A program made the translations under genes and the position numbers. From Zymoseptoria tritici IPO323 (taxonomy: Eukaryota > Ascomycota > Dothideomycetes > Mycosphaerellales > Mycosphaerellaceae), in NCBI RefSeq assembly GCF_000219625.1, contig NC_018218.1, positions 682,001-746,000 of the forward strand: a stretch of DNA of 64,000 bases, given 5' to 3'. The notes beneath the pieces are model-generated. The model saw nothing but the letters and a program-made list of their open reading frames with translations, searched no databases and was not told where the DNA came from. Positions 25,595-63,201 of the stretch are shown piece by piece; within the stretch, counting starts at the first letter, position 1, and each line of letters begins with the position of its first letter.

Positions 25595-25603
25595 GTATGC
25601 TTA
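25595..25603 (+). repeat. Left 9-bp target-site duplication of the 13.7-kb element
   Basis: GTATGCTTA directly precedes the terminal repeat at 25604 and recurs at 39289-39297 directly after the right end. Confidence 0.9.
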
Positions 25604-25623
25604 TAGTCTCAGGCGCTCAGACC
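25604..25623 (+). repeat. Left terminal inverted repeat of the 13.7-kb element
   Basis: TAGTCTCAGGCGCTCAGACC pairs with the right end (39,269-39,288), with 17 of 20 bases matching. The first nine bases are identical to those of the 565-bp element. Confidence 0.85.
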
Positions 25624-25809
25624 ACCTCGCTTAACGGGCCTATTAGCTGCAAGTAGCTGGCCCTACTGTAGGTAGTCTAAGGGTCTAGACGCGCTTTTTT
25701 CGTAATAGAGCGCAGCATTAGTATATAAATACTACTAATATATAGTGTAGCATTAATAACGGCTAGTAGCGACGATAGCGATACTAGGTATAATATTCAA
25801 ATTTCGGAT

Positions 25810-26027
25810 ACTATAACTTTGTATAACTAGACCTGCTAAACAACCTCTTACTATCTATTTGTCTATATCTCCTTAGTAGCGACTTCTAATAGAGCTCGCG
25901 TACCTCGTATCTTAACAACGCATTTATATAGTAGGACGCGAGCTCTATTAGAGGTCGCAGTTAGCGACTAATGCTAATAAAACTATATCTACTAGAACCG
26001 CACGCGCTCCCTTTACAAAGTTACAGT
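25810..26027. repeat. Nested inverted repeats near the left end
   Basis: The outer arms ACTATAACTTTGTA (25,810-25,823) and TACAAAGTTACAGT (26,014-26,027) enclose inner arms at 25,880-25,901 and 25,936-25,958 built around TAATAGAGCTCGCG. The inner arms are about 23 bp long with one or two differences. The same nested arrangement occurs in the 565-bp element, so it is an inherited structural feature of the transposon, perhaps for transposase binding. Confidence 0.8.
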
Positions 26028-26499
26028 CCTCGATTCTCTAATAGCTCCCCTAAAGGCCCGCCGTAGACAACTAAAGGTCGCTAATCCCCGATCTTACGCT
26101 AGCGATATCTCGAGTAGCTTTAGTACTAGTAGTACCGGATAAGATAAGAACAGTATAGGGACGTCGGTCGTCGAGGAAAATCGATTGTAAGAGTAGTCTC
26201 CTAGTATAGATATCGAGCGTATAGCTGCCCTACTCGACTAGTTCGATAGGTGCCTAGGCGACGACGACAGTAGTAATAGCGGGCTTTCGGACGTACCTAG
26301 TAACTTCGACGATATAGGAGGGCTTTAGGGTAGTCTATAAGCATCCGTTAAGGCGTCCGAGGAAGATTTGTCTATATAGAAGGTCCTAGGTAGAGGGGAT
26401 ATAAGGATCTATTTTACTAGGCGACGCGAATAGGTAGCTAAGATAACCGCCGCTCTATTACGTACGCTAGTAGAGGTTAATAACGTAGGCATAGAGAAG

Positions 26500-28700
26500 G
26501 TTGTGCTTTAGGCGCTATATAATGTATAGCGGCAAAACACTAACCCGGAAGCCGTGCGTTCTACCTAGCTCGGTCCGGTAGGCGCTAACAGCAAGCTATC
26601 CCTCGAGATACCTAAAGATATAGTTAGCAGTCTATTTGTACTATCGCGCCGGCGGGCGTTTCTTTAGGTACGTAATGCAATTAACTAGGCGATCGACGAG
26701 CCTATCCCTATCGATAATAGGCTACCTATAACTACCGCTTAGTAGATGCATTTAGTTTAGTAGGCGGTGCGACTCCTCCTTCCCTACTACGCTCGCCCGC
26801 TGCAGGTCCGGGCACTTTACTAGCTACTGTTTAATAACCGAGATCTTGTCTAGATCGCTGCTATATCTATAGGCAAGAGCCTCGTCTTCTAGGTATAGCC
26901 TATTATCCGTAACAAGATGTCGATCCTAATCTTGCCCTTAAACTAGATTAGCAGGGAATAGTTTAAAAGGATCGAAGGTATAGGAGGCAAGCTAGTTGCA
27001 CTAATATATAATACAAAGGCTAGTACTACGGCGGACAACTAGAAACTCCTATATTCTAGTAGGTACACCTACTTAATATTGTCTCTAGAGATAGCTATAT
27101 AGTCCTAGTTCCGGAAGCTTATAATAAGGACCGACATACGGAAAAGGCTAGGAATACTCGTCTACAATAAGTTTTATCTCGTCTACTAGTAGGGCATTAA
27201 GGGAGGAGGATTCCGGAAATAGTATACCTAGCTAAAGAACCTCCGGACTATACTTTACGAGCGGGTAAAGTTTTACGGCTACTCTGCGACGCTTAATGCG
27301 TCTACTCTGCTCAAATGTTAGGAGGCGGCCGGGTTCGACCTAGACACTTAGCTTATTCGCGATCCGATCGATCGGCCGGAGATATCGATACGGTATTATA
27401 CTATTCTAGACGGGATACTAACGAACTAGCGGGCGCTTTGGTATCTACTCGCAGACCTAGTCGGCCTAGACGGCGTTACTAGACCTTAGAGCGTAGAGAA
27501 GATAGTCGTCTTTATTAATAGCCGTGCCGGCATCTATGCCGCTACTACTAGTCTCCGGGCCTATATCTAAGTAAGGTATCCTAGTTAGCTAAGTTCGGAC
27601 GAAGTATACTAGCTCGTAAGGACTTACTACGGCAGGACCGTAAGGAGGACTTAGGCAAATGTTATCCGAGAGTTCTAAAAGCCCGACTCCTGCATCTATA
27701 TCCTTCTAGCTACTAAGGCGCTTAGCCTAGGGGTTAACTTACCTAATATTAAACGTATTGTGTAGTACCGACTAGCTATAAACGGCACTATACGTACTAT
27801 TATCTAGCGTGCTAACCGCGTAGTCCGAGACAGTCGAAAATAGGGAGCTAGTTCGTTTACGTTCCTATATAATCCGTAGATGCTCGGTAATTAGGTTATA
27901 TAAAGGCTGCCGGACTCTTAGGTCCCTACGAGATAGCAGAGCTAAGCAGACGACAATACCGCAACGCCTACGAGCTCTAACGCTAATATAGATTACCTAT
28001 TAGACGCTAGTTTAGATGTCGATAAGCCTCTTTAGGTTAGCTAATCGAAGAAAAAGAAGGGTAAACTAACGAATTAGCAGAAGCGCGACAAGATAGATAA
28101 ATGTGTCTAGAAGTTTGTTAACGCTTGTCTGCTGAGGAATACGTCCTTTCTACTGTCTTATCGCCGCGTTGCGGCACTTAAGTTGTTTTCCGAGGTACCT
28201 AGGCCGGTAGTAGGACGTATCTGTTACGATATCTGCTCGCCGGCGTCCGCTCTACCTTTAGATTATATACTCGAATAGGCGACTAATCTAGGTACTCGTA
28301 CGGCGGCAAGCATTACCCGGCTATACCTTAAGTCGATCCGCGATAGTCTAATTAAATAGGAGTCCGGAGCCGCTCGGTTATACTATAGTAACGCTATCTT
28401 TCCGGGAGTTCCTAGGTCTCTACTACCTTTGTATGTAGTTAACTACCTCGCTAAAGCGTATAGTATAGAGGACGCGCTACCCGATTTTAGCTATAGCCGG
28501 ATCTAGGGACTCTATATAGGTGTCGACTTCGTAGTCTCTTCTAAGTTATACGACATGCTAGTACCGCAGTTGTCGACCCTACGCAAGGTCGCGGAGTCTA
28601 TTAAAGCCTAGCGGCTATAGGAGCTTACGACTAAGCGCGAGGGTCGGGAGAGGGAGCGCTAGGAGGAGCGCTAGCGCTAGCGGCTCCGATGAGAAGAGGC
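26500..28700 (+). pseudogene. RecQ-like SF2 helicase remnant of the transposon
   Basis: From about 26,860 to beyond 28,230 one plus-strand frame continues without any indel, interrupted only by TAG and TAA. As seen, motif I reads SIGKSLVF (about 26,865-26,890). Motif II reads LVYNKFYLV where DExH is expected (about 27,155). Motif III is GYSATLNAST (about 27,280). Motif IV is VVFINSRAG, motif V ATKALSLGVNLPNI (about 27,710) and motif VI RANRVVRDSRK. A downstream Cys pattern (KCV..NACL..CYDIC) resembles the RecQ zinc-binding region. Such helicases unwind DNA and are carried by several fungal mobile or telomere-linked repeats. All lesions fit C-to-T RIP of CAG, CAA or TGG codons, so the gene was intact before RIP. 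The N-terminal border is not determined. Confidence 0.82.
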
Positions 28701-29399
28701 CTCTTCTAGTCGAGAACGGGATTGTTTTATAGCCTTTTAGGAAGTAAGGTCTACTAGTGCTCCGGACCCTCGTATTATCGCCTTTACTACTAGTAGTGCT
28801 TGTTCGGTCCTTACTCGTATACCCTCCCTAGTATTGCCTACCTCCTTAGTTGTTACTAGTTCTAAGCGCCGCCGAGGGAAGGCGAAAGCTCCTCCTCTGC
28901 CTACTCCCGGCCTGTCTACTAGCGCCTAGCCTCTACCTCTTACGGTAGTTCCTAGCCCTATAGCGGTAGGCTCTCGGAAGGGCAAGAGCGCGGCTTCTAG
29001 TCCTATTGTCGCCCGAGCCTCGCCGGTGTGTAGATTTGGTATAGAATTAGATCCTAATTATCGAGGCTCTCGTGCGCCTACTCCTATTTCTCTAGCATCC
29101 TCCGAAGTAGCCTAGTCGCCTATAACTACGGAAACATCTCGAGGTAGGAAGTAGGTCGTAAATAGGGTTTATTAGCGGCATCGACTCGGGTAGATTAATA
29201 GTTATATAGATAAGCTAAATAAAGAGAAGAGGTAGTCGGCGCTAGGTAGTTTGTTTTGCTAAGAATGCTAAGTTATAAGTGTATTTTTAGCTACTAGGCT
29301 CTTAGTTAACATTAGTTAATACTATCGTCGACCTTATCTTAAGCTAAGTTAATATTAATATCTTATAATATAGATTAATAATAGTTAGCTTCTAGTTCT

Positions 29400-32300
29400 C
29401 GCTATATGCGTAGTCCTCGTCTACCTGCCCCCTAGTCGCTATCTAATTCGCCTAAGGGCTCGCCGCTACCTACGACTAAAGCTAGCTAGCAGACGAAACC
29501 TAAGCCGACTAGGAGGAAGAGAGGGAACAACTAGTATAGCGACTCGAAGTCTACTCGCGAGAAAGTAGACTTTATACTACAGACTATTCGCGGGCAGCAC
29601 CTATCGTTCGAGGACTTCCTAACGCTTTATATAACGACTAAGAAAGAATAGAACATACCTAACTAGGGCGAGCGGGCGGCTACTAGGGCGGCAAAGTTAG
29701 TACGGATTCTGCAGGAGGATAAAGTAGTAGAGTGCATCGCACTACATATATCTAATAGTAAGTAGCTAAGTGCTGCGAGTCTAGCGAAAGAGCTCGAAGA
29801 TCTAAAGGGACGGAAGGTAAGTAATATTAGCACGTATAGGTTCTGTTGCTAAGTCTATATAGGAATTCGGGTCTTAGGATAGAAAACTGCCTGTAGAAGA
29901 ATTAGATTACAGAGACGCGGTAGTAGCTATAGGTTAGTACGTCCTATCTATTTAGGCTCTCGTAAAGGAGCTCTTAGGCTTGCTAGCAACTTAGGATCTC
30001 TCTAAGTTAATGCTCCGCCGCATTAGTCTTATTTCTAGTATGCTTCTGCGCATAAGACATCCTCGATCCGGGAATTAGTTCGCTATATAGTTAGGAGTGT
30101 ACCTATAGAGTTAAGGTGTTAAACGTCGCGTTCTTGCGGTCCTAGCTAGACTAGGTATATACGGATACCTAAAGAGTATATACCGTTGCAACCAAATGCT
30201 CTACGACCTAGCTGCCGGTCGTATTAAGGTATTCGGCCGGTCTAACCTTACCTATAGTATATTCGACAACCTAGACTACTTTGCCCGCGTCGGCTAGCAT
30301 AGCTTTAGTAGGCGGGACGTCCTAAAACATATTACTACTGCAAAATAGTTTAAGAGCATCGAGGTGCTACGCTTAGGCCTAAAGAAAGAACTATTCCGAG
30401 AGGATAGGCCGCTTTAGCTATAAGATATCCTAGATAGCCTAGGCAACCGGCATAATACTTAGTAGAAGGCGATCTTACTCTACTTAATCGCAAGCGCTAT
30501 AGCAAGGGTGTATCTAGCCGATATTATATAGGCATTCGGTGTCGAATCTAACAATTCTGTTTTAAAAAAGAAACTAAAGAAGAAGAAGAATGTTAGCTAG
30601 GACCCTAGTATTAGTAAAGATACTGCTACCGGTAGCGAAGCTAACCCTAACGGCATCGACTAGACTAAAGTAAAGGGCTTCCCTTAATTCCCGGCTTTTA
30701 ATTATATAGTAAAGTAGAAAACTATTAGTACTACTATAAATCTAATCTACGAATAAGAGGGCACGACTAAAGGTACTTATAACGTTATAGAGAATATACT
30801 AGAGGAGCAACTTAAGCTTAGGGAATTATACGAATAGGCCGTTAAAGAATAGAACGTAGACTAGATCTGCCGCCCTAGTAATTTCGACTACTACGAACGC
30901 CCTCCTACTACTTAGACCTAGCCCTCTACTAGGCAGACCTAAGTACCCGCTCCTCTAAATTAGTCGCCTACAGCTAATAACTATTATCCCGGCATACAAA
31001 TTCAGCCCCCCTCCTCGCAATATTAGCCGCCTACCTCGCAAAGCTGCCTTCCTAGCTTATAATACTAGCCGCCTACCTCGTAAAGCTGCCCTCCTAGCTT
31101 ACAATACTAGCTGCCTACCTTACAAAGCTGCCCTTCTAGTTCGTAATATTAGCTGCCTACCTCGCAGAGTTAGCCTCCTAGCTTATAATACTAGCCGCCT
31201 ACCTTGTAGAACCGCCTTCTTACGCTACGGAATCCGCCTCCTACTAGTCGAGACTAGCCCCCTAGCACTCGTAATCGACTACCTACGGACGGAGAACATA
31301 CTAAGGACGACGTTCTGCGTATTCGACAGCTAGTTAAGGACTTTATAGGTAGTACGTATAACCCCTCTAGGTATATTCTACTAATATACAGCAATTAGCT
31401 CTTCGTAAGCAATATGCGGACGTAGCTAAAGGAGTCCTAGGAGAATAAGGACGATTTTAACTACATGCAATAGGTACTACTATTACCTAGGCTCTTCTAC
31501 CTTAAGATGTGTCTAATATAGGCAATCGAGAATAATTTTAACAGTAGAAAGGGCTGCTAGGCTAAATCGTTACTCCTAGTATACTAGGAGATAATAGAGC
31601 GGAAGATATGTCTATTATTTTACGCGCCGCATAGCTACCTAGAACGACTAACACTCGACAGCTTTAATGTAAGGATACTAATATTCGTATATAAAGAAAT
31701 CGACCCGGTAGTTCCTAAGAGGTATGTTATATCTAACTATATCTAGGCGCTATTAGCCGACGGCTTTATAGGTCTAGTCGGAAAGGTGTACGAAAAGGCG
31801 TTCTCGCTGTCTACTTATCGCCTAGAACCCGATACTATTAAAGCTAATACCTAGAAGGCAAAGAATTCGTACTCCTCGAAGAAGTAGCAGGGGAAGAAGG
31901 CAAAGGCGACTAAAAAGGCAGCTGCCCGGATCGATAGAAACGAAGAGCGGAGAAACTATGTCTAATTCCTATATATCGTCGAGATGTATTATATGCTTAG
32001 CCGGGCTATTAAATATGCGGACATTAGCCTACTACGTCGAGTCGTTAACCGCTATATCCTAATCTTCTATGCACGCAGCTATAAGAATTACGCTTTTATT
32101 ATGCTATAGATAAAATAGCTAACCGATTTTAAGGCGTTAGATCTGGTGCTACAAAGAGCGATACTAGCGAATAGGTTCGTAAATATAGCGGGTGCCGAGG
32201 ATAGTTAGTTCGAGATTAACCGGGCAAACGAGTTCCTTAATCGATACCTAAAGACTCTTATTAGCAGCCGCCGTAATAGGACATTCGACGTCGAGAATTA

Positions 32301-32790
32301 ACTAGAAGAGGCAACCCTCTTAGCAACGTATACTAGCTATCTGCGAGAGGTTATAGAAGCTAGCTTCGGGGAGTCTACAAATATAAAGCACACGTCCCTA
32401 AAATTAGTTAAAGAGGTACATGCCGTCGCAGCGGCATGCTAGGACGAGACGTTAAAGACTAAAGAAGTCGATCCGGATCTTAATATAGTAGCCTAGTTTT
32501 ACGCTATAGACCTATATGCTATAGGTATTAAGAACCTAGTAACTCTAGTTAAGAATGTTAGCCGTCTAGAACACTTTAATAAGAACGTAGTAGTTAAAGG
32601 ACAACAGATTGTATAGGCCGACTAGCCCTTATTGTCTATTAGTATAGAGCTTCCGGACCTAAGGACAGACCCTTACTTGCAACGAGCGGTAGCGACCGAC
32701 CTAACACCTAGACTTATTATGTTATCCTAGGATCCGATAGACGGATACGAATTAGAGCTTTTACAATAAGGCGAGGTAGAGTAATGTTAG
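29400..32790 (+). pseudogene. Large DUF6589-like protein remnant, candidate transposition protein
   Basis: A long plus-strand frame with RIP stops starts near FILQTIRGQHLSFEDFLTLY. An apparent retained intron (GTAAGT..CTAAG, about 29,817-29,853) follows, then RRVLAVLARLGIYGYLKSIY and RIKVFGRSNLTYSIFDNLDY. A Pro/Ser/Gln-rich tandem repeat comes next, then a C-terminal domain with LFYLKMCLIQ-like, YARSYKNYAFIML, ANRFVNIAGAEDS, FEINRANEFLNRYLKTL and YLREVIEASFGEST. From memory this order matches multi-copy fungal DUF6589 proteins (N-terminal dedicated region, later GKHKYA-like, N.lvN.tG and E..N..K blocks). Its length of about 1,100 codons, its place in a transposon and the lack of any other transposase make it the best candidate recombinase. 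That function is inference. Confidence 0.6.
31020..31215 (+). repeat. 42-bp in-frame tandem repeat in the DUF6589-like gene
   Basis: About five diverged units of 42 bp (AGCCGCCTACCTCG..AGCTGCC..CCTAGCTTA) encode a 14-residue Pro/Ser/Gln/Cys-rich repeat, in phase with the surrounding frame. This would form a flexible linker between the two conserved parts of the protein. Confidence 0.75.
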
Positions 32791-32839
32791 TTACTTCGCT
32801 AGTCGCTACGTACTACACGGGAGCAAACCGGGCGTAGTA

Positions 32840-34700
32840 GGGCGCTATTATGCGCCTACTATCGTTAGCTAATTTACTAAAATTTATACGCATTAATTGT
32901 GTTAACTACACAGGTGCCTCCTAGTATATCTACCGCCCTATCGACATTATTACTCGGAACTCTTCTATCTACTAACAACATCTCGACTCTACTTTATTAT
33001 CTACTTCCTTATCTACTCTCTTGTCTACTTTATCTACTAATTAACTATCTCTTCTATTACCTACCTTCGCGAACGTACGCGAACTCGAATACTAGCTTAC
33101 TATAAGCACTCCTACGAGCGGTAGAAACCTCTCGGGTCTCTAGCGACTAGCCGACTTTAGCGAAGCCCTACTAGGCACTAATTAAGACTAGTACGACGCG
33201 GCATGTATCTAGATATAGGCGAACTAGTTTAGCTAGCTAAAAATACGGATATCGGAGCTCGAGGTAACAACGTTTATCGTTAAGCTTTATAGCGTCCTTA
33301 CATAAGAGGATAGTGCTATACTAGATCTACTTAAGAGATTTATACCTAGGTTATACACCTCTAGCAGACCGCACACCGAACTTATACTTCTCCTCGACAG
33401 CCGAGCCGACTAGGCGAAGCTTATTCCCCGGGACAAGATCGCTACGCGTATGCGCGGCCGCAACGATTTCTACCTGTATACAAGCACTACTTCGCTTTCT
33501 ACGATCCTAGCTAGCTTTATAGTAGGTGCCGAGTGTATAGGCGAGCCGGAGGAGAAGGATAGTTAACGCGGCTGCGACTAATGCGGTCTATACGATAACT
33601 AGAAAGGCTTCGTTAAAGGCTGCTATACATTCCCGGCGCCGGATAGTTTGTCCAAGCTCTAGTCGGGCGCGTGTACTAACTGCCTACTAGACGGTAATAA
33701 GAAGGGATATAGCATTAGCAGAAGGAAGTTATCGCGAGTTTACGACAGGCTAGCATCTAAAAATACGGCTAATACGTCGACTAGACAGCGCAACGATCCG
33801 CTATTAGCATTACTTAGACGCGTTATAGCTAAAGTTAACATTACAGATATCTTCGATAGAGATAGTATCCTAGATGCTGTTAGCTATCCTACTTCGAACA
33901 ACTCTATCCTACGAGAAGACTATATAGTAGGTATACTTAACATTCTATTCGTCTTTAGCTAGTACGATACTGCGGAGGCTTATGTCGGTCGGATAGAAAG
34001 CGTAGCGGCTAAGACTGTAGAAGCATGTCGGACTGCTATTAGGAATGCCGCTATAGCTCGAGACCAAACTAAGATAGCTGCGGCCGAGGAGAGATAGGTG
34101 TCCTTACCCGGATCTAAAGACTCTATGCTAGTGTTTAGCATGCCGAAGGCTAAGGTCCGAGAGCGTAAGTAGTATAGGAGCACGAGATTAGAGCGACTAA
34201 CTTAAGGTAGGAGGGTTCCTATCGATGAGGACTATTCTAGGCGCCGCTCGGATCGAAAGAATTTGCCTAGTAGCTTTAGAGAAATAGACGTCGAAGATAA
34301 AGACGATCTAGTTGTCCCTTCGGCCTAGAAATCCGGAAGGAAGAAACTAGCACTTACCGACCTGTTTAGCAGCCCCGAGCCGGAGACTACGCTAGCGAAG
34401 AAGCAAGCTTTAATAATAAGCAACATCTTTAGCAGCTTGCTAAGTAGTCGTAATAAGAGTCGTATAGTAACCTAGCCTTCCTAGCCTCGCACCTCGCAGC
34501 CGCCTAGGCGGAGGGTCTACAAGCCGTAACAAATTTCAGACGAGGAGATAGTCGACGCCGGAGGGGACCGAGACGTTACTATAGAGTCTGTGCCTATAGG
34601 CACTATAAGGCCTAGTAGGAGCAACAAAGTAGACAAGAGTAATCGCCGCCGTAAGCGGTAGTTAGATAGCTACACTAAGACACTAGAGCTTGCTTAATTT
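32840..34700 (+). pseudogene. Cys-rich (DUF3716-like) gene remnant, copy A
   Basis: After a T/A/C-rich leader (about 32,890-33,110) a plus-strand frame with RIP stops contains, at about 33,570-33,730, a cysteine pattern C-x2-C..KGFVKGCYTFPAP..GACTNCLLDGNKKGYSIS. This resembles the fungal DUF3716 zinc-ribbon-like module (CxxC, FxxC, GACtNC). Flanking parts are helical and charged: ITDIFDRDSILDAVSYPTSN upstream of the middle region and an Arg/Lys-rich C-terminus. The same architecture recurs in copy B about 2.7 kb downstream. It could be a DNA-binding accessory protein. The family call is from memory and moderate. Confidence 0.5.
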
Positions 34701-34768
34701 ATAGTACCTGCACTGCTATTTTAGATTCGCGTTTTACTTTATTACCTACGTAGCTGCTATACTGCCGT

Positions 34769-34943
34769 CCTGTCGTTAGGATAGCCCTACAGGACTAGCG
34801 ACCGCTTCTTAGTATTTGTTTAGCGCATTGCGCCTTAGATTTTACGAACAGCAGTTGCTCTAACACGACATACTAATTAGCAATAGACTACAAGCCCGTT
34901 ATTAAAGGTCTGTTCGTACCTATCGTTAGGATAGCCCTACAGG
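34769..34943. repeat. Pair of 25-bp hairpin motifs downstream of copy A
   Basis: CCTGTCGTTAGG-ATAG-CCCTACAGG at 34,769-34,793 and a near-identical CCTATCGTTAGG..CCCTACAGG at 34,919-34,943 are 150 bp apart. Ends CCTGT/ACAGG and inner AGG/CCT can pair. Another pair with the same spacing follows copy B. Confidence 0.85.
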
Positions 34944-35479
34944 TCGATAGCAAGTTGCTAGATATATTCTTCGAATTAAACCTTAGTATCCCTATTAGCT
35001 ATCGCCTTATATTACTTAGGTGTTGCGTAAACCTAGTAGTATTATAAACAGGAGCGCAGCTTCTTTATCCGTATTATACTTATTATCTAAGCTACTATAA
35101 CGCCGGAGTCCAGGACTTACATTATGCCTACGCTAAAGTAGGCGGGCCTAGTACATATATACGGACTAAGGAGTCTAACATAGCCTTAAGGCTCGTAAAC
35201 ATAAGAGGAGCTATAAGACGAGGTCTGAACCGTAGACCGGAATGAATCTTAGATCCGGCTATACCGCATACCTTATAATTCCTAGTACTACTAGAATAGC
35301 TAAAGTTACTACTAAGTCCTTACTACCGGAGCGAGGCTAATAAGCTATATAACCGACTTTACGGCTAAGATCTTACTGCTAAAGTAAGCCTAGTAAACTA
35401 TATAACCTAACCGCGACGATAAGTAATATTATGCTCCCTAAACACCTATATGCAAGGCGCGACAGCAAACCTATTACGC

Positions 35480-37610
35480 GCTATTATACGCGCAGGAGGG
35501 GCCGCATAGTAAATTCACGAGCTAGCTAACGCACTAACTAGCCGACTTAAAAGCGGTAATTATGCTAGCTGCATAGAGGGCAACCTAAGTATATCTACAG
35601 CCCTACTAACCTCGTTTCTTAATCTTCTTTCTCTATCCTTTATTAACCTCCTTCCCCTTCTGCCTTCCTTACATTATCTACTACATTATCTACTACACTA
35701 TCTATTACACTATCTATTATACTATCCGCTATACTATCCGCTATCGTCCGCTTGCGTCGAGTAGGCTACTATTCGTAACTGCGCTGCCTTATTAGAAGCA
35801 GCTATTATAAGCTTATAACTTCCTAACATTTACCGCGATTTACAATCTAAAGACTAACGAGACTATAGCACTACCGAAATATCCAAGACTCTAGGAAAAC
35901 GCGCGAAGATTATCCGCGACAGTCTCGAGCGCTTAGCGAGCTAGGGCAATATACTATCCGGAACAGACTAGGAGGAGTACGAGGCCGTTATAAGGTAGCT
36001 GTAGAAGTATTAGTTCGGCTGTAAGCGAGTCGAGCATACGAAGGAGAGCATCGCGGAGTTTATTAGAAAGCTTTACTAGGCTCTATTATAGGAGGATAGA
36101 GCAGTAGTGCAAAAATGTAGAGAGTTTATCCTATCGACTTATACAAATAGTCGCCCTTATAGTAAACTAGAGTCTATCCTAGATTCTTTAGTAAGCTAGG
36201 CGAGGCTTATTAGCCCGCAGGAAATTAAGGACCGTCTGCGTAGCGACATAAACGTTAACCTATAGGGAAGCGCTACGAAGCTTAGCGCTATCCTAGCTAG
36301 CTTTATAAAGGGTACAAATGAAATAGGCGAGCTAGACGATAAGGTAGGTTAACGTAGCTATAACTAATGCGGACTATCTTTAGACGCGAAAGGCCTAGTT
36401 AACGGCTGCTTTATGTTTCCCGCGCTAGACGGCAAATCTCTCCTCTTCGGCAGTGCCTATACAAACTGCCTGCTTAATAGTAGTTACTACTTATACAGCA
36501 TTAGCATAGTCCCGGTAAAGAAGCGCGTATCGCGTATAAGCAAAGGTAGCAAGCGAGAAGAAACTTAGCTATTATTATTACTAAACAGAGTTACCTAGCA
36601 AGTGCGTATTAGCGAGATCTTCGACGATAGTGCTAGTATCCTAGACTCTATTACCTATCCTACCTTAGACAACTCTATCCGGGTAACTAACCGTATAATA
36701 GGTATGCTAAGCGTTCCCTTTACCTTTAGCCGGAACGACGATACTGCTATATACGTTAGACGGATTAAGAGTGTATTAAAGGACGGAGTAGAGGAGTGTC
36801 GGTCGACACTACATAATTAAGAGCTCCGGAACTTATCTAAGTCCAATGCTAGAGATACTTAGTCGATAGGATCGGGCATTTCGAGGCTAAGAATAAAGAC
36901 TACGAGTCCGAAGAAGAAGACGCCTTAGAGGATAACCGGTAGGATAGAGGAAGAGCTAGAGGAACTAAGGAGGGAGCCTAAAGACTTCGCGCGCAATTAG
37001 CGCTGTATTACCCGCTCGCAGAGCACTACCTAGCAGCCCTAGGCGGACGAGATAGAGGTAGACGATTAGCTAGTAAGCCGCCGACGTCGTTACCGCTCTA
37101 AGAAGACTTCCTAACTCTTGCTAGAGTTTGTATAGGAGGACTTAGATAAGGATCTCGAGGGGATCTAGACGTCTAGCCGTCCCCCCTTTAAGGACGGCAG
37201 GATAGTTAGTTTAAAGGTAGATAAGACACCTAGCAAGAAGAAGAAGGGTAGTGTTTTCTCGAATATAAACTTAGGCTTAGGTTTTAGCCTGGATCCTAGC
37301 GTAGAACCGGAACCCCGGACTAGAGCGATAGGGATGTTCGATAGGTTCTATAGCCGTAGTAGCTACTTAGTTGCGCTATTAAGTGTAGTAAAGCCTCGTA
37401 CGGCGGAGGCACTAGCTCGTCGAGCATACAAGCCTTAGGATTAGGATACGCGCATAAAGGATCTCGGTAAGGACAACACGACCTAGGACCTTACTAATAC
37501 GTCTACTAAGGTAGGAAAGTAGAAGCGCCGCGAGTCTAGCTAGGGCGGTTGCTACCGCGACTACTAAGAAACGGAGCGACAGGTGCGGATAATAGGAGGG
37601 CACTATAGAG
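35480..37610 (+). pseudogene. Cys-rich (DUF3716-like) gene remnant, copy B
   Basis: A second, diverged version of the 33-kb gene. At about 36,345-36,520 it has the same cysteine module (YN-x-CGLSLDAKGLVNGCFMFPAL..AYTNCLLN..YSIS). This is followed by RISEIFDDSASILDSITYPT and LDNSIRVTNRIIGML, paralleling ITDIFDRDSILDAVSYPT of copy A. The upstream leader is also repeated (CGCTATTATxCGCG, AGTATATCTAC). The downstream half is acidic and Lys-rich (KTPSKKKKG). Amino-acid similarity despite heavy nucleotide divergence suggests an old tandem duplication predating RIP, with both copies once functional. Confidence 0.5.
35670..35750. repeat. 12-bp tandem repeat (CTATCTAYTACA-type)
   Basis: About six to seven units of the form CTATCTACTACA/CTATCTATTACA/CTATCCGCTATA follow one another in the leader of copy B. 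The corresponding leader of copy A has looser TTATCTACT repeats. Probably simple slippage expansion before or after RIP. Confidence 0.7.
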
Positions 37611-37698
37611 TATACAGATGTTTTAACTTAGATTTTAGTACTTTTATTACATTTACTAGTATCGCGCTACGACTTTAGTAGAGTAGCATCGAACTTAG

Positions 37699-37872
37699 CC
37701 TGTCGTTAGGATAGCCCTGCGGGTAGAGCGATTACTAAGCGAGCATTAGATTTTACGCATCGCGACTCCTATATAAGATAGGAGTAGAGACGAGACATAA
37801 CGTAGACGGCGGTAGACTATAAGTCCTAATATCGCTATTTAATTCTACCTATCGACAGGATAGCCCTATAGG
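37699..37872. repeat. Pair of 25-bp hairpin motifs downstream of copy B
   Basis: CCTGTCGTTAGG..CCCTGCGGG at 37,699-37,723 and CCTATCGACAGG..CCCTATAGG at 37,848-37,872 are 149 bp apart, matching the pair after copy A. Between them the shared phrases TTAGATTTTACG and AGACTAxAAG also correspond. Confidence 0.85.
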
Positions 37873-38323
37873 TTAAAAGCATACTTATAGTTAAGTCCTT
37901 TTTAATACAACCCTAGTGCCTTTATAACCCGAACCGTCTTATTTACTAGTGCTCTAGCAAACGTAAGGCTCCCTTTTATTAAACATTGCTATATAACAAT
38001 AGAGTTCGCTGTAAGATTATAGAATACGCGAGGCGATTGCTATTCTTATAGCACTTTAGCATAACTATTTATTAGATAAAGGCCGGTAACGTAGATAAGT
38101 CGATAGCTACGTACGAATAGCAATTAGTAGCTAATAGAATTTACTAACGAGATGCTAACGTTACGCTGCGTAGCTAGGCGACTAAATAGCATACAAAATA
38201 ACCCCGTAAGAGCCCCTAAGACTTCTCTCGAACACTAATATTAACAACTATTAAGCGAGACTAGTAAGTATGCCTTAGCTGCCTAGGCAAATATCTAAAC
38301 TGTACTAACATTTGCTAGACACT

Positions 38324-39016
38324 ATGTGCTTCTCCTTAGACGACTAGTTAGTCTATCGTAGTGTTAACCGCTACCCGAAGCAAGGTCTGCGAAAGTTGCG
38401 CGCCTTCCGGAACTACTTAGAAGAAGAGCGCTAGGCGTAGCGGTAGGACTTACGTATAGCGTAAGAATAAGACTTCGAATCCGCATACGATCTTCTAGTA
38501 CGGCGCCTATCCGACAACCGCGATTAGTCGCGATACGGAGGCTTAGGATACTATATAGGAAGCTCTAACTACTACTATATAGATAAGACATAAGAATTAT
38601 ATTTAGGATAGCGCATAGAGGGGAGGCTAGGGATAAGGCTAGATAACGGACGTAATACTAGAGATACTAGGCGGACGACCCGGAATCTATAGCCCGCTTA
38701 AGTTAACAACCCGTTTATAACGCGGCTAGCGCCTCGTAGCATAGCGCCGTCGACTTATCGCAACATAGGACAGCATCCCCGTATCGAGACTATAGCAACT
38801 TAGTTAAGTGTACGTAGTCGCTCTAGCTAACGACTAAGAGCTTATTAACTACTATTAACGAAGTAGAACCTGGCGGATTACAAGAGTAGGGCGGCAGCGA
38901 TTAAGGCTAAGGAGGAACGCGCGCAGCAGCGTCTTACTATAGCGGACAAATAATATAGTACTAGCGACGGATATAGGGGCGTAATAGACATAGGTATAGT
39001 AATTTTAAGCTTTTAG
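38324..39016 (+). pseudogene. Small Arg/Asp-rich ORF remnant at the right end of the transposon
   Basis: From an ATG at 38,324 (MCFSLDD) a frame of about 230 codons runs to a TAG at 39,014, interrupted only by RIP-type TAG/TAA. It contains LVYRSVNRYPKQGLRKLRAF, RRLSDNRD, GGLGYYIGSSNYYYID and KSRAAAIKAKEERAQQRL. The protein would be basic and probably helical at the end. I recognise no domain. Its uninterrupted phase argues that it was a real gene of the element. Confidence 0.5.
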
Positions 39017-39220
39017 CATAAGAATCTAGCTACGATACTAGTTAGGAACTAATACCCCTACTACGCACGACAGCGATAGAATTATAGTATAATTTTTATA
39101 GTAGTGCAATTAGATCGACATGCAGCTTCTTATACATACCTTAATTATACGATAAAAGTAGTTTTAAATTTTCGATGTCGCGGCGCTGCACAGCATCACC
39201 CAAAAACGCTGCTAGGCCCT

Positions 39221-39274
39221 CAGACCCTCTCAGGCGAGGCGCTCGAAGAGGTTAGTGCTCGCCAAGAGGGTCTG
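39221..39274. repeat. Subterminal hairpin at the right end of the 13.7-kb element
   Basis: Arms CAGACCCTCTCAGGCGAG (39,221-39,238) and CTCGCCAAGAGGGTCTG (39,258-39,274) are complementary except for a bulge, with a 19-bp loop. The enclosing 65 bp (39,213-39,277) are identical to 53,645-53,709 in the short element. Confidence 0.9.
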
Positions 39275-39288
39275 TGCTTCTGAGACTA

Positions 39289-39297
39289 GTATGCTTA
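39289..39297 (+). repeat. Right 9-bp target-site duplication of the 13.7-kb element
   Basis: GTATGCTTA, identical to 25,595-25,603, immediately follows the terminal TGAGACTA. Confidence 0.9.
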
Positions 39298-53146: not shown

Positions 53147-53729
53147 GGAGGTGAGTAGTCTCAGTGCCTCAGTCCACGCCCAGTTAGCGCGGATTCGACG
53201 CCTACTGTTCGTAGTCTGAGGGTCCGAACGCCGAATTTGGGAGATAGAGCGCAGCATTAGTATAGAATTTACACCTTAATAAAGCGCAGTATCGTTTCGG
53301 CCCTAATTGCTACAACGCAACAACGAAACTAGTTATTAAAAATCCGAGACTATAACTTTGTAGAGCCGAGTCTTGCGATTTAAACGGTGTATTAATTATT
53401 TAAATCCGACGCTAAACGAAAGCTGTAATAGAGCTCGCGCAAATTCTTCGGAATTCTAATTTATTAGGCGAAAAACAGGAAAATGCGAGCTCTATTAGGG
53501 CACGCAAAACACACTTAAATTTTCTATACGATACGCCGTTCGAATTGCAAGACTCGGCTCTACAAAGTTACAGTGCCGGATTTTTGAAAAAGGTCGTTGT
53601 TGTTGCGCTGTCGCGTGCTGCACTACATCTCCTAAAATCCGGCTTAGGCCCTCAGACCCTCTCAGGCGAGGCGCTCGAAGAGGTTAGTGCTCGCCAAGAG
53701 GGTCTGTGCGCCTGAGACTAGGAGGTGAG
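53147..53729. repeat. 9-bp target-site duplications flanking the 565-bp element
   Basis: GGAGGTGAG occurs at 53,147-53,155 and again at 53,721-53,729, immediately outside the two element ends. Confidence 0.92.
53156..53720. mobile_element. 565-bp non-autonomous relative of the 13.7-kb transposon
   Basis: It begins TAGTCTCAGTGCCTCAG and ends CGCCTGAGACTA, so its termini are inverted repeats of the same type as the long element. It shares AGAGCGCAGCATTAGTATA near the left end, the nested inverted repeats, and an identical 65-bp right segment. The outer internal arms are 28 bp (53,349-53,376 and 53,547-53,574, one mismatch) and the inner arms 13 bp (53,426-53,438 and 53,485-53,497). There is no coding capacity. 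It still contains many CA and TG dinucleotides, so it is much less RIP-mutated than the long copy. It fits an internal-deletion (MITE-like) derivative moved by the long element's proteins. Confidence 0.92.
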
Positions 53730-56868: not shown

Positions 56869-57585
56869 TTAATCCTCGCTTTCCTTGCTGTTAGAGTCGT
56901 CGTCCGGACCTTCGATTTCGGGGCCGGGTAGTAGAATGTTAATAAGCGCTAGGGCGGCGGCTTAACGACGGCGTTGAAGTTTGAGAGATTCTGGCTCGAA
57001 CTCGCTGGATCCGCTGGCTATAGCGTTAAAGACGGCGGCTCCTTAGCCTCTTCTACGTTAGTTCCCCGCTATCGCGGTTATAGCGTCCTCCTCGGCGTAG
57101 GCGTCTCTTATTATCTAGTCGGGAGTAGTAACGTTGCTCGATCGAGGTCCTTTAGGTAAAGGTAAGGAAGCGACCTTCCTAGCGTTACGGTTTATCTTTC
57201 TAGTCTTCGATTGCTTAGACTTAGTATTAACGCCTATTACGTTTTCGTCTTCGTCCTTATCTTAGCGTTTGCGTTTCGCGGGCTTCTCGACCTTAATAGT
57301 AACGGCCTTAGTAGGTTGCTTCTTTGCTAGTGCCTTCCTCTTAGTCGGCTTAGGCACAGGTATAAGCTCCTTCTCCTCTTCGTCGGAAGAGTCGTTAATA
57401 GGCTAATTACGTCGTAGGCGAGCTAGTAGTCCGGAGTAGTACGGAGTAAGGTAGTTTTCTAGATCGTTATCTCCTTTAGACTCTTCGTCGAGGGCGTCTA
57501 GGGCAGCCTAAGCGACCTGTCTCCTCTTTTTACGTTCCTTAGAGGCCTTAGACTTGCGATCATGTTCTTTTACCATCTGGCGCAT
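56869..57585 (-). pseudogene. Extra lysine-rich ORF after pol in the copia element
   Basis: From an ATG at 57,585 (MRQMVKEHDRKSKASKERKK) one minus-strand frame of about 239 codons runs to a TAA at 56,869, interrupted by a handful of TAG/TAA of RIP type. It contains several basic nuclear-localisation-like clusters (KERKKRR, KPAKRKR), acidic runs (DDDSNSKESED) and a moderately conserved-looking middle (AYAEEDAITAIAG). No domain is recognised. It lies between the end of pol and the 3' LTR, where typical fungal copia elements have no gene. A captured host sequence or an accessory nuclear protein are possibilities. Confidence 0.6.
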
Positions 57586-57979
57586 GGTGCTAATGTTAAC
57601 ACCTCTGCTAATGCAAAATGAGGTAATTGAAGAAAAGAAGAGAAAGTGGAAGTGCAAACGGAAAAGATATAAGCTCTAAGAATAAGTATAGACTAGTGCT
57701 AAGGAATGCGTTACGGGTTTAGAAGTACGCGTAGTTCGGTATGTAATAGCTATTTAGGCCTTTAATAGCTGCTAATTTTAGTTTAGCGCAAAAAGTAAAG
57801 TAAATTTAGCTTTAAAAGGGTAATCCGGTCGATAGATCCCTAGATGTATACGTCCTAGACTACTTGTTAAGGTAGTAAACGTAATAATTTAAGTCCGTAT
57901 GTAATGTGCATATAAGGCTATATAATAGCCCCTAATCGTTATGCAGACTTCTTTCTAATAGTAAAGTTAGGCTAGGTAT

Positions 57980-60900
57980 TTGCCTAGCCCTTACCCCCGA
58001 GATCCGGTAGTAAAGTTTTACTGTTAGCGTAGTCCTTACCCCCTAGATCTAGTAGTATTATTATTCGGAGCTAGTCTAGAAAGGCGCGATGCCGTTATAC
58101 TAATAGCAGTTTTGTTATCCCGTCTGCGGGCATTAAGGTAGTTTCGACCTATTCGACCTTAAGGTCTCCGGCTTAGTACCTCTTACGTAGCTAGCACTAC
58201 TATATATCTACATGCCTTATCTTAGTGTCTAGCTTTTGGCCTTATATAGTAACAACTCGAATAGTTTGCTTGTTGTTATATAATAACCTGCCCTTGCTGT
58301 TAAGGCTTAGGTCTATGCTTTTAAATACTCGTTCCTACTAGATTATCTCCGTTCTAGTATAGCTAAGTATATATAGCTCTAACTCCGTAGATAATTTAGT
58401 AACTATAGTCTGCTTCGTAGACTTCTAGTCGACAATTCCTCTAAACAAAAAGAAAACTATACCCTCTAAGCTTCTTCGCGTCTCTAGATTGTTTGCGAAC
58501 GAAGCATCTAAGGCTCCGAAGAACTCTAGTAGTTGTAATAGGTATATTAGCCTGCCGTCGTCTTTGCTATACTAAACGCTTAATTAAGAGCTCTATAGTA
58601 GATATCTAATATAGTAGTCTACTGCTTTTAGATAGTACTCGGCTAGATTTACTAGATAACATGCTAGTAATAATACTGCAAAGGTAATATCCGGTCTTAT
58701 GTAGGATGCTGCGAAGTTAAGTAATCCAACTTTGGACTGCATCTCCTTAATTATGTAGGGTTTTGCCTTCTTGTTAGCCGGTTCTTAATTAAAGTTTACT
58801 AGTAGAGGTGTATCTGCCCTCTTTTCCGTTAATAAGATATTATATCTTCTAGCTACCTTCTTAATATAGGTATCTTAGTTAAGCTATATGTCCCTAGTCT
58901 CTCTGTTCCGGATAATCTTAATTCTATAGAAGTAGTCGATAGGTCCTATAACCCTTATCTCGTATTTAGCTATAAGCCTCTTTTATATATCTTCGGCGTA
59001 AACTCTGTAAACACAATAAAATGCTAATATAATATTATCTACAAAGAAGAAGATTATAACCTTTCTATTAGTATATAGGTAGTTAACGACTTGTCGAAGT
59101 CCAAGTTCTTCTATACCTTCGCTTAGATCTCCCTACTATAATGCTAGGGACTCCTTAAACCCGTATAGGGCGCGAATATACTTTAATAGCTTGTTCGGGT
59201 CTCGAAAACCGTCTAGGGGTTGTAGGTAGATTAGCGTTAGTAACTCGGAGTTTAGAAAGGCGTTTACTGCGTCTATCTATATTATCTCGAGGTCGAAGTG
59301 TACTATAATTGCTATTAATAACCTAAACAGCCTCGCTGCGAGGGTAGTAGCGTATGTATTAAGTTCGGTTAATTGCAAATTACCTCTTGCACAGATTCGA
59401 GCCTTAAACTTCTCTAAGTGCCCTTTTAAGTCTTGCTTGTATTTAAATACCTACGTTAATAGGACGGTAGGGTTGTTTTCCGCTTAACTTTTAGGGATCT
59501 AATAGAACGTTCTAGTATCTAAGGCCTTTTAGAATTTAGCTCTTACTACTTTCTTAAACTCCTCTAAGTACTTATGCATAATAAGATCTTTCTAGCGTTT
59601 TAGTTCTAGCGGTAAATCTCCGATAAGGACTAGTGCGTCTTTTACGGATGCTCCTTCCTCTATAACCGCCTTTATCGTAGTAATAGCGTAGACTTTAGCT
59701 ATCGTCGTATAAGTCGCGAACATTCCCGTAGTATCGAATAAGGTTATTTCGCCGAAGTTAAAGTCTATAACCTCGCAGTTAAAGCTTAGAGGTAGCTAGT
59801 AGTCGATTATTCTCTGCTGTTAAGTTAATAACGTTAGTTTATCGAGCTTATCGTCCGGATCTATCTGTTCCGGTCCCTGCTTCTAAGCTTAATAGAAAGG
59901 GAAGAGTTAATTGTCTATATATTCGATGCCTTAGATACTAACAAACGTTTCTACGATGTCCTCTCGCATCTCTTTAGGTCTGTCGTAGGGGATTGTATAT
60001 TCGATATTACTGTCGTTTTAAATTAGAGCACCTCTTCGGAAGGATTCCGGAATTTCGACCTTATTACCTTGTCTAGCGATGTAGCTTATGTATATAGCCT
60101 CTTGTAGGTTATAAAATTAATGTGCTTCTGCAGCGTAGTCTAGTTCGATATTAATCGCAAGATTAAGTGGTACTACTATGTTTAGATTAAAGTCGTAGAG
60201 TCCTTCGTACTTTATCTTCTCGTTAAATACTATATCTCTTGTCCTAATTACCCTATCTAGGCTTAGAATCCAGATTCGAAAGATGTTATATCCCTCGAAG
60301 CCGACTAGGTATCCGATTCTTGCTCGCTCTATTATCTTCTCCCTTTTAGGGACGTCTTTTAGATTAGTTTTGTGTGCATACGCTCTCGACCCGAACTTAT
60401 AGATGTAGGCGATATCTAGCTTCTAATTTGTCGCTATTTCCTATAGAGATTTATAACCTAATACTTACGTTAGGGCCCTATTTATAATATAGGCTGCTAT
60501 TATGTAGGCTTTATTCTAGAGATCCTTTAGGAGCCTCGATTCGATAATTAGTGTCCTTGCTATCTCGACGATAACGCCGCCGGCTCGTTCTGCTAGGTCC
60601 TATGCTTGCGTATATAGTACTAAGGGCTTCTACATTACTAATCCCTTGCGGAGTGCGGATTAAAACGTTAATCCGTACTTGGGGTCTGCGTCCGATCTAA
60701 GGGCGAATATTTTACGACCTATACTCTTTATAAAGGTCTAAAGTTCCTCGAAGTATCGTACTAGGCTCGCTTAATTAGCGTTCGGCATCGTCTAAACGAA
60801 GTGTAGGTGTGTTGTTAAATCTACGGCGTAAAATATGTATTTATCTCTGTTCTTTGCTATATTAAATTCTATAATATCGGCCGCAACGTCGGAAAAAGGT

Positions 60901-62950
60901 GCTAGTATCCTAATCTTAACCGGTTTTCTTCGAGAAACGACTCTTTTCGACTTACTCTAGGTATATAAGTAGTATTCGTGCATTTTAGGGGCCGCATCTC
61001 TATCTTTTAGATACTCTATGCCTTTAGCGGCTCGATAGAGTTCTAATATACGATTACCCCCGATATAGCCTATAACTCGGTGCTATTAGGCCTAAGAGAG
61101 GACTCTAGGTCGTCTCGTAGCCCTACTGTCCGTCGCGAATGCGACGAGCTGTCTATCGGCTAGTTAATCCCTTTTTAACGCTATCTCGACGCTTAGGGGT
61201 TAACTATTCTCGTTAAGTAGCTAGTTAATAATTTTAATCCTTACTTTCGGCGTAGTCGCTAGGTTTAGGTATAGTAAGCCGCTATATCGCTTAATCTTAG
61301 TAATAACTACTCCGGACTTATCTATCTAGTTGTCGGTCCTCTTGTCTAAGAACAGGCCGAAGTCTCTATACAGCCTAGTCGACACGATATTAACGTAAAA
61401 TCCGGGTATATATAGGACGTCCCTTAGTAATAGCGTAATCGGCTTGCCTAAGGGTAATAGGAACTACACTTTTGCCGTGCCTCTTACAGTAGCCTTTATC
61501 TGCTAGTTCCCGGTGTAAATCGATACGTTATATAGTATATTAACGACCTCGAATCCCGCTATAGTTAGGTTGTTTATAATGTAAACGTTCGAGCTACTAT
61601 CTAGAAGCTATCGATTCTTCTTATTATAAGCTTCGGTCGATATTACTCTAAACTAAGTTACCGCTCTAATAGCGTAACTGCTATACTACGTCTTTAGTTC
61701 GTTAGAGACGATTGTCCTATTTAAACTAGGTATTCCGGACCTAGTCTATTCCTTTAGTACCTTAGTAATCTTGTAGTAATCCTTTAGTCCTATAGTAATA
61801 GGGTCTCTAAACTTTATCTACTAGAGGCACTTAGCCTTGTCCTTCTTAAGGACGTTCCGGTAGTTGTTAAGGAATTTCTTATCCTCTTTTGTTATATCGG
61901 CTTTATTAGGTCGAAGACGATAATTAATAATAGGACAATCTCCTAGTTTTAGATACGCTTTGTCGGCGTCTTTACCTATATACGGTCGATAGGTCCTATC
62001 CTTGTTGTTAGGCCTATTCCCTCTGTTTTAATTACCTAAATTAGTCGTTGCGTTAAATGTTACCTAACCTATTCCGGTAATTTGAGCCTCTTTAGACCTA
62101 AACGTAGCGTTTGTACGGAACTACTTAGCTAAGTTGCTAGGGTCTCTGTTAATAAACGTAGTTACGTCGTAAACGCATTAACTAAGATTATTCTTACTCG
62201 CTAATAGCCTTCCTGTAGTAACATTAATCTTGTCTTCTACTATCCGCACGAAGTCGTCTTTTAGGATGCTAGCGGCCGGATAGTGTCCTCTAACTATCTT
62301 CTTTTTAAGCTTAATCTACTTCTATAGGTGTATAAAGATGTTAGACGACTTAGGTCTAGATAATAGGTCGTTATGTTGTTTAGAAAGCATTCTGCGCCTC
62401 GTTACGTCGTCCGGCGCGAATGTCTTAGTTACGAAGTCTATCTAGCTTGCTAGTGTCCTAGATTAATTGTTAAGGTCGTCTAGGTACGTTAACGGAATAG
62501 TCCGGCTAAAGTATTTTTTAAAATCTTCTTTCTTCTTCCTAAACGTCTCGTAGATAACGGATTCTCTAGTATAGTTCTTTATTTTAGAGTCGAAAATAGC
62601 TTTATTTTGTTGCTACTTTATAAAGTTCTCGCTTTCTAGAAGTTAAGTGTCTGTAAGGTCTAATTCCGTCTTGTTCGGCATATTTAGGACCTTTAGTTCT
62701 AGAGTTCGGTCTACGGCTATACCGTCTATAACTATTAGGGTTGTCTCTCGCATATATTGCTATATATAGTTGTTAATTGCCGCCGACTTAGTGTTTAGGT
62801 ATTATTCGTCGTACTTAGTTTAATCGGTGTAGACGATTTCTCGACGCTTTAGTCCTATTGCGGTTAGAAAACCTAACGAGTCTAGCTTAAGACCTTCTAT
62901 TATTACTTGTTAATGCGAATTTGTCTTTAATCTTGTTGTTTAAGTCGAAA
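57980..62950 (-). pseudogene. Copia Gag-Pol remnant
   Basis: Minus-strand domains in order: Gag (about 62,900-62,050), where a degenerate knuckle (IGKDADKA..LGDCP) is visible; protease with LLDSSSNVYI (about 61,610), the expected D-S-G reading DSS; integrase with HRVIGYIGGN and later RSDADPKYG and AQDLAERAGG, the D,D,E residues (about 61,090-60,450); reverse transcriptase with DAVNAFLNSELL (about 59,280) and FFFVDNII where VDD is usual (about 59,045); RNase H region ending MPADGITKLL (about 58,110). Pol terminates near 57,983. Lesions are overwhelmingly RIP-type stops and transitions, so the element is dead. Integrase before reverse transcriptase is diagnostic for Ty1/copia. Confidence 0.9.
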
Positions 62951-62963
62951 CCGGGCTTATAAC

Positions 62964-63201
62964 TGTTAATTAAGTAGTATAATGTAGGGGTAAACTTCAA
63001 GATTAAGAAAAACTATATGTTTCTTAAGGTTATCGACCTAAAGACTATATAGACGCTGTAATTCCAAATACCCAAAAGGGGTTAGGGTCTTATCGCCAAT
63101 ATCCTATAATATCATATAGGACACTAACTACGTAATCAGGCTGTTGGAGTTAATATCCCTGGTCTTACCCTGTTTTATGAATCAACGCTAACAGATCGAC
63201 A
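62964..63201 (-). repeat. Right LTR (5' LTR of the minus-strand copia element), 238 bp
   Basis: It starts TGTTAATTAAG and ends ACAGATCGACA. In its right half it keeps several CA/TG dinucleotides that are TA in the left LTR, so RIP hit the two LTRs unequally. Confidence 0.92.

Follow-up and report, generated by a model that had tools for sequence, protein, structure and literature searches.

What kind of mobile DNA is the 13,685-bp block at positions 25604-39288 of a 64,000-nucleotide stretch of Zymoseptoria tritici IPO323 (NC_018218.1; the whole stretch is called the window here, and unprefixed positions refer to it), and which of its proteins might move it? At a probability of roughly three in four, we read it as a DNA transposon that moves by cut and paste and belongs to the helicase-bearing kind that produces 9-bp duplications, probably the AcademH lineage, with a DUF6589 protein as its transposase. 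The block is a complete element, on the plus strand, of what we call family A, a genuine and recently amplified transposon family that is now damaged by repeat-induced point mutation (RIP).

The sequence-only reading had drawn the ends of this element from terminal inverted repeats (TIRs) and a perfect 9-bp duplication, and both proved exact: GTATGCTTA flanks 25604-39288 on both sides, with the left target-site duplication at 25595-25603 and its perfect copy at 39289-39297. The TIR pair is TAGTCTCAG...CTGAGACTA, the left TIR (25604-25623, plus strand) being a perfect TAGTCTCAG that is paired with the right TIR at 39269-39288 on the minus strand. The first 20 bases of the two ends agree at 17 positions, and none of 20,000 shuffles was equally good. 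Near the 5' end of the element lies a subterminal imperfect inverted repeat (25879-25958), and Rfam gave no match at 25.5-39.4 kb.

Genome searches (21 contigs, 39.69 Mb, in which repeat counts are lower bounds) with a 2-kb probe from the left end revealed more long copies at 91-95% identity, and a right-end probe found copies at 89-95%. Both ends are common to at least 18 family A elements including that of the window, and the check proposed earlier, for 9-bp duplications at other copies, found them at every one (17 perfect, one 8/9). Ten further copies were retrieved either whole or for the greater part, the ends of others separately. Seven of the ten had both ends in the initial stretch, with duplications that were perfect in six and 8/9 at C2:1975813; the other three, longer through nested inserts, showed perfect duplications once their right ends were examined. 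The duplicated 9-mers, compared at 16 of the 18 sites, have no strong consensus.

These copies also bear on whether the block could be a composite of separate nested elements. A later nested retroelement in three of the ten retrieved copies would fit such a composite, as would two of the 18 elements that are stretched to 26.5 kb (C5:2402601, whose right end lies that far from the left) and 28.4 kb, presumably by insertions. Against it, the two ends are identical in kind across all 18 elements, each of which has the helicase, DUF6589 and both cysteine-rich matches described below; these common ends and this layout refute a composite, to which we attach next to no probability, and one large transposon, as first proposed, is upheld. 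The nested inserts at C13:933530 (L019), C8:2192866 (L013-L014) and C6:2427876 (L025-L026) measure 756, 790 and 1,553 bp among the three and have in common their 5' end, (AAAC)n-like 3' repeats and 13-14-bp flanking duplications; the insert is a short retroelement.

The same ends and duplication length recur in shorter relatives and in a sister family. Three internally deleted derivatives (123, 421 and 1,371 bp) all have perfect 9-bp duplications. A family of miniature inverted-repeat transposable elements (MITEs) of 565-576 bp counts 17 copies, one of them shortened at its left end; among the 16 examined, the duplication is perfect in 14, 8/9 in one (C4:1253391) and missing in one (C12:1084678). 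One of these MITEs, 565 bp long with the TIR TAGTCTCAG, lies on the plus strand at 53156-53720 between perfect 9-bp duplications GGAGGTGAG (53147-53155 and 53721-53729) and is a second relative within the window that the sequence-only reading overlooked. No plasmid records resembling the MITE were found. Family B is represented by 11 left ends, ten of which were paired with a right end, all ten with perfect 9-bp duplications; seven of the paired elements measure 11.57-11.65 kb and three are longer, at 17.2-20.3 kb. Pooled over the families, a 9-bp duplication is present at 46 of 47 loci (44 perfect, two with 8/9). The pattern GGTCTGNGCNNCTGAGACTA, with at most one mismatch, occurs at 89 genome sites as against one for the reversed control; 80 of the 89 were placed by hand (36 in family A, six in derivatives, 17 in MITEs, 21 in family B), and nine were unpaired.

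Such ends decide against a Helitron, the name under which a helicase-containing repeat may pass. In favour of that name, a 2014 study of Z. tritici repeats applied it to three helicase-containing families, any of which might be the present element; two of the three have 5' TA, and in both a 3' hairpin precedes CTRR (PMC4522978). Helitrons have neither TIRs nor target-site duplications (PMC4522978), whereas the present element has inverted ends and belongs to a set with duplications at 46 of 47 loci. For this element the Helitron label is therefore refuted and deserves hardly any credence.

The history of family A is legible in its mutations. The RIP indices TA/AT and (CA+TG)/(AC+GT) are 2.02 and 0.40 in the element, while its left flank has values of 0.49 and 1.25, and 8,251 of the 8,365 differences between the window copy and ten others are transitions. 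When columns that are invariant C or C/T on either strand were compared, the C/T share was 93% where the next base was A, 46% for G, 8% for T and 4% for C, a preference for A as would be expected for RIP. Mean transversion divergence among the eleven copies is 0.05%, which suggests that the family spread recently and was mutated afterwards.

The coding content was approached through this damage by Pfam searches in all six frames of the window copy, with stops read through as X. One and the same frame gave a DUF6589 match at E 4.5e-21 and a Helicase_C match at E 6.6e-7. A RIP-broken, RecQ-like superfamily 2 helicase lies on the plus strand at 26506-28605 (Helicase_C at 27496-27828; gene ends provisional). 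Less damaged copies yielded matches to DEAD, Helicase_C, DUF6589 and DUF3716, and in one of them (L027) the helicase matched DEAD at E 5.5e-9 and Helicase_C at E 5e-11, its best PDB chain being RecQ (E 7.9e-13). All Pfam matches are on the plus strand and the three minus frames gave none at E <= 0.1, in agreement with the proposal that the genes share one strand. The proposed gene content stood for the RecQ-like helicase, DUF6589 and two related cysteine-rich proteins, all recovered by read-through; a small basic protein lacked support. Its frame at 38000-39001 (plus strand), a doubtful gene, has no Pfam match, and apart from one marginal 25-residue stretch its matches lie in the 18 elements of family A, so that its status as a gene is unconfirmed.

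The same searches speak to the suggestion that the element might be a Mutator relative that acquired a helicase. Its 9-bp duplication would agree with the range given for IS256/MuDR, 4-10 bp (PMC10045372), but no domain of Mutator-like elements (MULE) appeared in the six read-through frames. RIP damage weakens that absence, yet DUF6589 and the helicase were detected through the same damage, and we regard a Mutator origin as very improbable.

Helicase matches were found genome-wide in all 18 elements of family A and one derivative; family B adds 11 elements (47-50% identity over the main matches), and eight loci elsewhere complete the set. Six of the eight (on C1, C2, C3, C5, C7 and C18) have a DUF6589 match no more than 15 kb away on the opposite strand, the two being convergent as judged by eye; at C14:214621 and C18:374805 there was none within 15 kb among the matches listed. 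In the elements of families A and B, by contrast, helicase and DUF6589 point the same way. Because they occur together in families A and B as well as at the six loci with another gene order, the two look like the core module.

For the step of transposition itself, DUF6589 is the best candidate. The RIP-broken gene lies on the plus strand at 30160-32760 (Pfam match 31363-32391; gene ends provisional), and its read-through frame includes a tandem repeat (31018-31210, plus strand) with overlapping matches, where the alignment shifts among copies. Codon constraint acts on DUF6589, in which the columns D...D...FH...E are retained, and this combination suggests a DDE transposase, in line with the earlier proposal that the DUF6589-type protein is the recombinase. 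Structure prediction gave two models, both of low confidence, the first of which was used with VIA-align; a search by sequence at E <= 1 found no PDB relatives. In homologue searches, each of which scored the 7,999 candidates with most words in common, the damaged window protein found no homologue at E <= 0.001, an intact exon from C18 found four proteins and a profile found six; a protein found with the C18 locus, from Z. tritici ST99CH_1E4, has 100% identity over 95% of the query.

The C18 locus itself (C18:114284-117397) holds a DUF6589 gene with probably one intron and a match, at C18:115874, without any stop. About 5 kb away, in convergent orientation, lies a helicase match with a single stop (C18:122013-122942). 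A comparison of 108.5-114.4 kb with 122.9-125.7 kb on C18 found no inverted ends with a 9-bp duplication.

Downstream of DUF6589, family A carries two RIP-broken cysteine-rich genes on the plus strand. Protein 1 (33300-34799; gene ends provisional) resembles DUF3716, its Pfam match at 33558-33704 being below threshold in the window copy (E 0.018; 15.4 bits against a cut-off of 22); in less damaged copies one cysteine-rich protein reaches 27.2 bits, above the cut-off, and the other 21.6, just below it. Protein 2 (36089-37090, by read-through) is a paralogue of protein 1 (39% identity, E 5e-46), and both were found in every family A element, at 18 places each. In family B, six elements have one distant cysteine-rich homologue directly downstream of DUF6589 (25-29% identity, E 2e-8 to 2e-5), and none appeared for the other five among the matches listed. 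With two such genes in all of family A and one or none listed in B, the pair is best read, from these comparisons, as a duplication within family A. The DUF3716 model matched the genome at 13 places, 12 of them above the cut-off, with ten inside family A copies and three outside. The three frames outside the transposon (C7:1709132, C7:1715393 and C1:5994392) are above the cut-off, have matches without stops and are possibly resident genes related to the cysteine-rich proteins of the element.

Taken together, we infer a cut-and-paste mode in which DUF6589, as an RNase H-like DDE transposase, would bind and cut the TAGTCTCAG ends and join them to target DNA at strand positions 9 bp apart, whereupon gap repair would leave the 9-bp duplication. 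The RecQ-like helicase might unwind the element ends or the target DNA, or process the excision product, and the DUF3716-like proteins might bind zinc and serve as accessory or DNA-binding factors. The short derivatives, both MITEs and those that arose by deletion, would be mobilised in trans. DUF6589 and DUF3716, families of unknown function, are now tied to a transposon whose ends are exact, whose duplication length is fixed and which has derivatives, so that the transposase assignment is directly testable. A single genome also supplies one system in its large, internally deleted and MITE forms, which is useful for the correction of annotations where a helicase-containing repeat may be mistaken for a helitron.

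Two neighbours in the window complete the picture of the locus. A cytochrome P450 gene (39658-41241; E 3.9e-31) has its first ATG 360 bp beyond the right duplication, so the element occupies the upstream region of this gene. A second RIP-damaged, AT-rich block at about 56,900-63,000 holds, on the minus strand, a retrotransposon of the Copia type with an RVT_2 match at E 6.5e-17. Its 2-kb probe matched 17 other places over the full length, at 86-91% identity, and eight in part.

Among described transposons, Styx (IS3EU) resembles the element in being large, in having four reading frames and in its Zymoseptoria host; it differs in that about half of its copies measure 7,927 bp, the examples quoted have 6-bp duplications, its transposase is of the IS3EU-type DDD/E kind and the main text on Styx does not contain the word helicase (PMC10853768, in part). 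Also described among Z. tritici repeats are MITEs, in one family, whose duplications measure 8-9 bp, and a family of RecQ helicases linked to telomeres (PMC4522978). Fungal origin and a RecQ helicase are likewise traits of KolobokH (PMC9587614), where the helicase lies downstream of the transposase domain, whereas here it lies upstream (26.5-28.6 kb against 30.2-32.8 kb for DUF6589), if DUF6589 is the transposase. We consider membership in that group highly unlikely. Kolobok duplications are TTAA, and those of the present element are 9 bp long and different at each listed site.

AcademH reportedly comprises helicase-encoding DNA transposons of the Academ superfamily, as described by Kojima in 2020. 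The available descriptions present a helicase-encoding lineage of animals and fungi with duplications of 9 or 10 bp (PMC10045372; reports from fungi in PMC10799480), and the AcademH paper is cited in PMC9970103; in the parts available of PMC12612061 and PMC10652580, Academ is absent from the main text and 105 consensus sequences are unclassified. The earlier remark that no described fungal element with exactly this combination was known is not upheld in so far as AcademH is such a helicase-encoding lineage, although the pair of DUF3716-like cysteine-rich proteins goes unmentioned in the descriptions given in PMC10045372. AcademX belongs to the same superfamily as AcademH and differs from the present element in its 3-4-bp duplications and its nuclease, as against 9 bp and a helicase here; the difference in duplication length has been tied to helicase versus nuclease (PMC10045372, in part).

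A different reading would make DUF6589 the transposase of its own RecQ-assisted superfamily, unrelated to Academ, with an independently acquired helicase, coincidental 9-bp duplications, at least two gene orders and a duplicated DUF3716-like factor that joined in family A. It could draw on the words DUF6589 and DUF3716 not being found in the literature searched, on a likeness to Academ that is known by description and not by sequence, and on the six convergent loci, unlike the present element; against it, helicase, 9-10-bp duplications and a fungal host together are reported traits of AcademH (PMC10045372, PMC10799480), and we hold it to be unlikely. The AcademH reading agrees with the encoded helicase, the fungal host and the 9-bp duplications seen at 46 of 47 loci. 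Placement in Academ is probable from helicase and duplication length, and as these two traits are those by which AcademH is described, the element is filed as a probable new member of that lineage.

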